Of a stretch of 64,000 nt of DNA, positions 33,267 through 35,060 are shown piece after piece. Numbering within the stretch: the first letter of the stretch is position 1; the number at the start of each line of letters is the position of its first letter. The notes below the pieces were generated by a model that did no database searches, was not told the DNA's origin, and worked only from the letters and a program-made list of their open reading frames with translations. Both the position numbers and the translations under genes were made by a program. This DNA comes from Nitrospirota bacterium (GTDB lineage Bacteria > Nitrospirota > Thermodesulfovibrionia > Thermodesulfovibrionales > Dissulfurispiraceae): contig WSNO01000022.1 of NCBI GenBank assembly GCA_009773415.1, forward strand, positions 1-64,000. The letters run 5' to 3'.

Positions 33267-34031
33267 ATGAAAAGGTTGCTGGGTTTGGCATGTGTGGTTA
33301 TGTTGCTATTTGCGGTGCCGGCATGGGCAGGCTTCGTGAACGGCGGATTCGAAGACGGCACCTTTAACGGATGGACAAAGGATGGCGGCTACTGGGGGGG
33401 TGGTAGCAGTTATAACTATTCTGGAGATCCGGGTCTTTCTGCAATCATGACGGCAGGAACAGATGCTTTGAGCGGCAATAAACTGCAAAAGGTTCTTCCG
33501 GGATATGGAACGTATTCAGCGCGCATAAATGACGAACTCTGGGATGCTCATTTCTCGACGCTTTCGCAGAAAGTAACCTGGAACGACGATGCAATTTATT
33601 TTGCTTTCGCAGCTGTCCTTGAAGAACCAGGCAACCTACATCCAGATGACGCTGCGCCTCACTTTTCCATTACCCTGAAGAATGTTACAACGAATACGGT
33701 TTTATACTCGAAGGCGTATCAGGTCTATGGTCTGGACGCCTCCTGGAAAAAAGGCATTTATGGCGGCCCCAATGATTCTAGTGCCCAATGGTGGTACAGG
33801 GACTGGGAAATTGTCTCCATCAACACATCCGCATACAAGGGCAATGAGTTACTCCTGACACTTTTAGCGTCAGACTGCGGCTGGGGGGGGCACGGCGGCT
33901 ATGCATACCTGGATGGCTTTGGCGCTGTTCGTCCGCCCGATGTCGGCGCCATTCCTGAGCCGTCAACCTACATGCTGATGGCGGCGGGTGTTGCGGGGCT
34001 TGTGTTTTTCCGGAAGCGTTTCCAGAAATAA
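33267..34031 (+). CDS. PEP-CTERM sorting-domain surface protein
   Basis: A 254-residue exported protein. The signal peptide (MKRLLGLACVVMLLFAVPAWA) is followed by a beta-rich domain beginning NGGFEDGTFNGW, typical of small PEP-CTERM proteins. It ends with the sorting signal IPEPSTYMLMAAGVAGLVFF and a basic tail RKRFQK. The exosortase at 24423 should recognise this tail. It has its own sigma-54 promoter and a strong intrinsic terminator, so it forms a single-gene unit controlled separately from the polysaccharide operon. The function of the mature domain is unknown; secreted adhesin or floc/biofilm matrix protein is the usual guess for such proteins. Confidence 0.93.
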   Translation: MKRLLGLACVVMLLFAVPAWAGFVNGGFEDGTFNGWTKDGGYWGGGSSYNYSGDPGLSAIMTAGTDALSGNKLQKVLPGYGTYSARINDELWDAHFSTLSQKVTWNDDAIYFAFAAVLEEPGNLHPDDAAPHFSITLKNVTTNTVLYSKAYQVYGLDASWKKGIYGGPNDSSAQWWYRDWEIVSINTSAYKGNELLLTLLASDCGWGGHGGYAYLDGFGAVRPPDVGAIPEPSTYMLMAAGVAGLVFFRKRFQK

Positions 34032-34117: not shown

Positions 34118-34633
34118 TCAGTTGCACGCCCGCAGCAGCATCTTGGCGCGCACTCTCTGCAGTTCCTGAAACGCTGCATGAAACGCCCGCACCTTTTTTG
34201 CAGGCAGGGTCTGCAGGTGCGCTATCAGCGCCTCGCAGAAGTGCCAGGTGCAGCGGAAGGGGCGCTGGTGGCGCGGCAGCCGGCACCCGGCGGCATCGAG
34301 GAACTGGCAGGGGTCGGTCTCGTTCCGGTGGCGCTCATAGCGCGGTACGGGCAGTTGCAGGCAGAAGGCGTACACAAGATCATGCAGGTCAAACGAGCCG
34401 TGGCGGTCGATGCAGCAGACGTTGGTGCAGCGCGGGCAGATGACGGCGGTCTGCTCCTGGAGGAACGGATCGACTGCATTGATCAGCTCGCGCACACGCT
34501 CTGCCGCCTGCCGCGAGGCAGCATGTTCAGGAGAGTCGGGGCAAAAGAGGTCAGATAATGCCTGAATAGCTGCGTCCCACTGTTCGGTGTCTCGCCACGA
34601 AATATCCCACGCTATGCCCCCGAAATGATTCAT
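34118..34633 (-). CDS. YkgJ-like cysteine-cluster protein
   Basis: A 171-residue protein with a cysteine-rich core: CPRCTNVCC near residue 65, CQFLDAAGC near 108, and CTWHFC near 128. The spacing follows the YkgJ-type zinc or iron-sulfur binding pattern, including the RPFRC segment. The outer regions are helical. Function of the family is not known. The gene stands alone between the PEP-CTERM gene and the divergent small dual-CXXC gene. An overlapping frame on the other strand is a shadow, because the cysteine pattern is only in this one. Confidence 0.7.
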   Translation of the reverse strand: MNHFGGIAWDISWRDTEQWDAAIQALSDLFCPDSPEHAASRQAAERVRELINAVDPFLQEQTAVICPRCTNVCCIDRHGSFDLHDLVYAFCLQLPVPRYERHRNETDPCQFLDAAGCRLPRHQRPFRCTWHFCEALIAHLQTLPAKKVRAFHAAFQELQRVRAKMLLRACN

Positions 34634-34710
34634 TTCACTATGGTATAGTAAACCGATATGCCCGCGCTACAGATTGCCTGCTCCGCCGATGAGAGAAGGG
34701 AGATTGCCAC

Positions 34711-34878
34711 GTGAAATGCCGCTCCTGTCAGGCGCCGCTCCGCTTGGTAATCGGCTGAGCCCGCGTGCTTTTAGCCTGCGCGTCGTGCGGGCAGGTCTTC
34801 CCGGTTCAGGAATATCTTGACGAGATTGACGAAGATGCGTGGCGGCGCATTGGCGAGCGGCCCTGCAACCGGGCATGA
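34711..34878 (+). CDS. small dual-CXXC protein, probable selenoprotein (in-frame UGA read as Sec)
   Basis: From GTG 34711, eight bases after a GGGAG ribosome site, a 55-residue protein can be read if the TGA at 34756-34758 (codon 16) is decoded as selenocysteine. The parts are MKCRSCQAPLRLVIG, then Sec, then ARVLLACASCGQVFPVQEYL and an acidic tail ending before TGA 34876. The two CXXC pairs (residues 3/6 and about 23/26) lie on opposite sides of the TGA in one frame, so the downstream half is clearly the continuation. A hairpin starts at the base after the TGA, as in bacterial SECIS elements. From memory, small dual-CXXC (seleno)proteins of this kind are annotated in anaerobic bacteria; the function is unknown, though thiol/selenol redox or zinc-ribbon chemistry is likely. 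Standard gene finding will miss it or call two fragments. Confidence 0.72.
34759..34792 (+). promoter_or_regulatory. candidate bacterial SECIS hairpin
   Basis: GCCCGC (34759-34764) pairs perfectly with GCGGGC (34787-34792). An inner stem GUGC/GCGC can extend it to an apical loop of about nine bases, UUUUAGCCU. The hairpin begins immediately after the in-frame UGA, and its loop lies about 11-19 bases downstream, close to the range used by SelB. It is also part of the coding sequence. Confidence 0.6.
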
Positions 34879-35060
34879 ACATGACAACAGGGATCAATGG
34901 TTCGGGATGCAAGGATGAACAATCAAGCCTTGAGGCTTTGTTCCTCATGCTGAATGCTCAATGTGTGGTGAGTTTCGGAAATGACGCGTCTGAAAGAAGT
35001 TCGCACTGTGCAGCATCGGAACTGGTGAGGAAGGTCTGCCATAGCATCGATCATCATTGA
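34875..35060 (+). CDS. possible small ORF coupled to the selenoprotein gene
   Basis: A 61-codon frame opens at an ATG overlapping the selenoprotein stop (ATGA) and runs to 35060, past the start of the NYN gene. The product (MNMTTGINGSGCKDEQSS, and so on) is like no family known to me and has no clear domain. The overlap arrangement is the only support. It may be chance. Confidence 0.2.
   Translation: MNMTTGINGSGCKDEQSSLEALFLMLNAQCVVSFGNDASERSSHCAASELVRKVCHSIDHH

Follow-up and report, generated by a model that had tools for sequence, protein, structure and literature searches.

Small proteins with two CXXC pairs and either selenocysteine or cysteine between them already form a curated family. 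NCBIfam holds it as NF041197 (CxxC_Se_CxxC, 'dual CXXC motif small (seleno)protein') with a cut-off of 40 bits, and a 2026 review has two entries for it, the hypothetical proteins OS_HP3 and DW (PMC13188914). OS_HP3 is listed also in PMC12013277 and PMC9312934. A gene of this kind is found in the window, which is the whole stretch of 64,000 nucleotides that was analysed. The homology search called for by an earlier note on this DNA was run across the internal TGA, and the translation of 55 residues matches the NF041197 model above its cut-off (60.4 bits, E 1.4e-16, positions 1-52 of 53), so that the kind of gene was already known. This match, and the residues kept on either side of the TGA in relatives (see below), exceed chance by far. 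The window protein resembles the family in length, in its two CXXC pairs and in having selenocysteine (Sec) in the place where family members have Sec or Cys. It differs from most relatives, which carry R22 and M24, by having A22 and A24, with compensating bases in the hairpin described below; otherwise there is no substantial difference. There is very little doubt that 34711-34878 encodes a true selenoprotein and that the gene belongs to the known family NF041197 (OS_HP3). The gene is real, yet the family is already catalogued by NCBI and by reviews and is not new; what is new is limited to this member, a corrected hairpin and a lead from the neighbouring genes.

The gene and its elements are as follows.

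34711-34878, forward strand: gene for the small selenoprotein with two CXXC pairs, 55 residues, start codon GTG (34711-34875 coding, stop codon TGA at 34876-34878)
34756-34758, forward strand: in-frame UGA, selenocysteine 16 (UGA or Cys in the relatives read)
34717-34728, forward strand: first CXXC pair (C3, C6), invariant in 36 sequences
34777-34788, forward strand: second CXXC pair (C23, C26), invariant in 36 sequences and overlapping the hairpin
34692-34703, forward strand: likely ribosome-binding site, GAAGGGAGATT region, by sequence inspection

With the GTG start taken as M, the translation of 34711-34878 is MKCRSCQAPLRLVIG-U-ARVLLACASCGQVFPVQEYLDEIDEDAWRRIGERPCNRA, and a CXXC pair is found on each side of the internal TGA. 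The earlier note had described all of this correctly: the frame and where it ends, the GTG start, the cysteine pairs C3/C6 and C23/C26, and only one internal TGA, at residue 16. The gene is thus confirmed, the note's reading of it as a selenoprotein is supported, and it would be missed or truncated by ordinary gene callers.

An AlphaFold model computed with 36 sequences (pLDDT 82.9) has strands at residues 9-14, 19-23 and 29-31 and a helix at 41-48. A strand-turn-strand unit joins the two CXXC pairs and is followed by the helix. Among solved chains, zinc-ribbon subunits of RNA polymerase come nearest, as weak matches (best VIA Z 4.2, best Foldseek E 0.05), and the PDB sequence search returned chiefly short zinc-finger-like matches. 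Comparison with the structure library gave no strong match, which is no proof of a new fold. The zinc-ribbon proteins (RPB9/RPC10, MJ0042-type finger) have the layout CXXC-beta-hairpin-CXXC that is predicted for the window protein, and a weak fold similarity to it. However, the window protein scores below the curated cut-offs, including those of the Pfam zinc ribbons, it carries a Sec where they have none, and it adds a C-terminal helix region with the motif YxDEID..W..I. Going by the model, the small protein probably resembles a zinc ribbon, with Sec16 placed at the turn that joins its first two strands. One metal would then be bound by the two CXXC knuckles, and Sec16 may be an exposed redox nucleophile that is separate from the metal ligands; both assignments lean on a model of moderate confidence. 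Another role for the residue has to be weighed, in which Sec16 would be a fifth metal ligand together with the two CXXC pairs and the protein would be a metal chaperone or sensor, not a redox enzyme, while still being a selenoprotein. In favour of this, the protein is small and cysteine-rich and has cysteine-cluster genes adjoining it, but the model puts Sec16 on the turn of strands 9-14 and 19-23, at what would be the end of the zinc ribbon pointing away from the metal. We therefore consider a ligand role improbable and prefer an exposed Sec16 distinct from the metal site.

Two genes upstream of the selenoprotein gene are the following.

34118-34633, reverse strand: divergent neighbour, cysteine-cluster protein of 171 residues with CPRCTNVCC ... 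C ... C ... RPFRC, a YkgJ/PF03692-like motif
33267-34031, forward strand: PEP-CTERM sorting-domain protein (TIGR02595 over cut-off)

The protein encoded by 34118-34633 has no Pfam match at E 0.01, and at E 0.001 no second copy of it was found in the genome. Its gene is retained beside the selenoprotein gene in many relatives. A gene of the CxxCxxxCC type was found within 2 kb of the selenoprotein gene in 23 of 41 loci and farther off in one, counts which have to be read with the differing flank lengths and the relatedness of the loci in mind. In several loci (e.g. L050, L052, L062) there is a cysteine-cluster gene on each side, and the two belong to different families. Downstream in the window there is a YacP-like NYN gene, and there are further genes that near relatives conserve. 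The adjacency to CxxCxxxCC genes is a lead that is possibly unreported. The selenoprotein might be a redox or metal-delivery partner of the adjoining CxxCxxxCC, YkgJ-like proteins, a proposal that we put forward tentatively and think has perhaps one chance in a few of being correct. If true, this partnership would be the first functional link for the OS_HP3 family, and the adjoining cysteine-cluster genes provide a testable lead on the function of NF041197.

Within one order of Nitrospirota the family is near universal and, as a rule, has the Sec form. It was found in 150 of the 176 genomes of this order (137 over the cut-off), and nearly all matches in this order have exactly one internal TGA. 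One genome of the window's genus gave no family match, though selA is present there. Contigs were scanned for relatives with a query profile made from closer family members, and the named contigs that carry the family are nearly all from Nitrospirota, including Thermodesulfovibrio and Thermodesulfovibrionales bins, which makes this order the most likely source of the window. These relatives bear on the possibility that translation really ends at the UGA and that what follows is a decayed or separate frame, i.e. that the locus is a pseudogene. A standard gene caller would indeed halt after 15 residues, and the list of open reading frames has no entry here in this frame. However, 36 aligned sequences keep both halves in one frame with 35-60% identity to the window protein, and the internal stop is TGA, never TAA or TAG, among the matches listed. 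No variation occurs among these 36 Sec sequences at C3, C6, residue 16 (UGA), C23, C26, G27, Y35 and W44. Since residues before and after the UGA are conserved throughout an order, the pseudogene is refuted; we assign hardly any probability to it and follow the reading as a selenoprotein gene.

Nine full-length matches have no stop in the column of residue 16, and all seven that were read from DNA have Cys there (L020, L021, L022, L023, L027, L030, L033). The homologues checked at this residue thus have UGA or Cys, and no homologue that was read stops at it. According to a hand tally among the matches listed, selA is absent from about 5 of 9 genomes with the Cys form and from about 13 of 140 with the Sec form. 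Lack of selA goes with a higher share of the Cys form (Fisher p about 0.001, a value that ignores relatedness and genome incompleteness). The source genomes of L020, L027 and L030, which have the Cys form, keep selA, so the exchange of Sec and Cys is not strictly tied to loss of the machinery.

The genome from which the window comes codes for the complete machinery. The search for selA, selB, selD and selC that had been proposed found all of them: selA (614 bits), selB (345 bits), selD (333 bits) and, as selC, a tRNA-Sec with a UCA anticodon. The selD gene has an in-frame UGA of its own (L016, C59:99593-100507), which brings the selenoproteins of the genome to at least two. Decoding of the UGA as another residue (Trp, or a reassigned code) would account for the open frame and for nothing else, and we regard it as the least credible alternative, practically negligible, because the Sec machinery is complete, Cys is the replacement in relatives, selD contains a UGA too and the gene's own stop codon is TGA.

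Selenocysteine insertion brings us to the RNA downstream of the UGA, where the following element was located from RNAalifold and pair counts on 36 sequences, a wider set and Cys controls.

34774-34792, forward strand: likely SECIS hairpin, arms GCCUGC (34774-34779) and GCGGGC (34787-34792), loop GCGUCGU (34780-34786)

The earlier note had placed a SECIS directly after the TGA, with the six-base arms GCCCGC/GCGGGC. These arms exist, but the conserved hairpin starts 15 bases 3' of the TGA. We do not take the pairing of GCCCGC (34759-34764) with GCGGGC (34787-34792) for the conserved element, since relatives do not conserve its 5' arm, which in addition would lie within the ribosome while the A site holds the UGA. 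In the RNAalifold consensus of the 36 sequences, columns 20-25, numbered from the TGA, pair with columns 31-36; the window helix equals this consensus helix plus one extra pair below. Five named pairs (columns 20-24 with 32-36) are standard pairs in 99.4% of cells in the 36 sequences, and pairing falls to 22-69% when the partner is shifted by 1-3 columns. Pair 20-36 occurs as G-C, C-G (in the window), U-A and U-G, with three two-sided changes, that of the window among them. Column 20 is the second codon position of residue 22 (Arg, Ala, Leu or Val) while column 36 is the third codon position of Gly27, and therefore protein constraint alone is insufficient to explain the match of this pair. A hairpin about 15-36 bases past the UGA would recruit SelB and Sec-tRNA, by which selenocysteine would be inserted at residue 16.

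In the wider set, all five pairs are formed in 55 of 64 Sec genes as compared to 2 of 7 Cys genes. Predicted energies of 33-base segments are between -9.1 and -14.8 kcal/mol in seven of eight genes of the Sec form (-3.6 in the eighth) and between -3.6 and -4.3 kcal/mol in three Cys genes. The energy of the window hairpin alone is not better than that of shuffles (z -0.5), and two rival pairings of this sequence, one of them that of the earlier note, have probabilities of about 0.3 and 0.27 in isolation, with only 34774-34779/34787-34792 being conserved. An Rfam scan of 34600-35000 gave no match, so no standard SECIS family applies; a conserved stem-loop is nevertheless present shortly downstream of the UGA. 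One of the five pairs is missing in 9 of the 64 Sec-form genes, some of which could pair in a shifted register. In L092 and L093, both of the Sec form, the hairpin is apparently in such a register (e.g. CUCCGC/GCGGAG in L092), which suggests that its position can slide within the gene.
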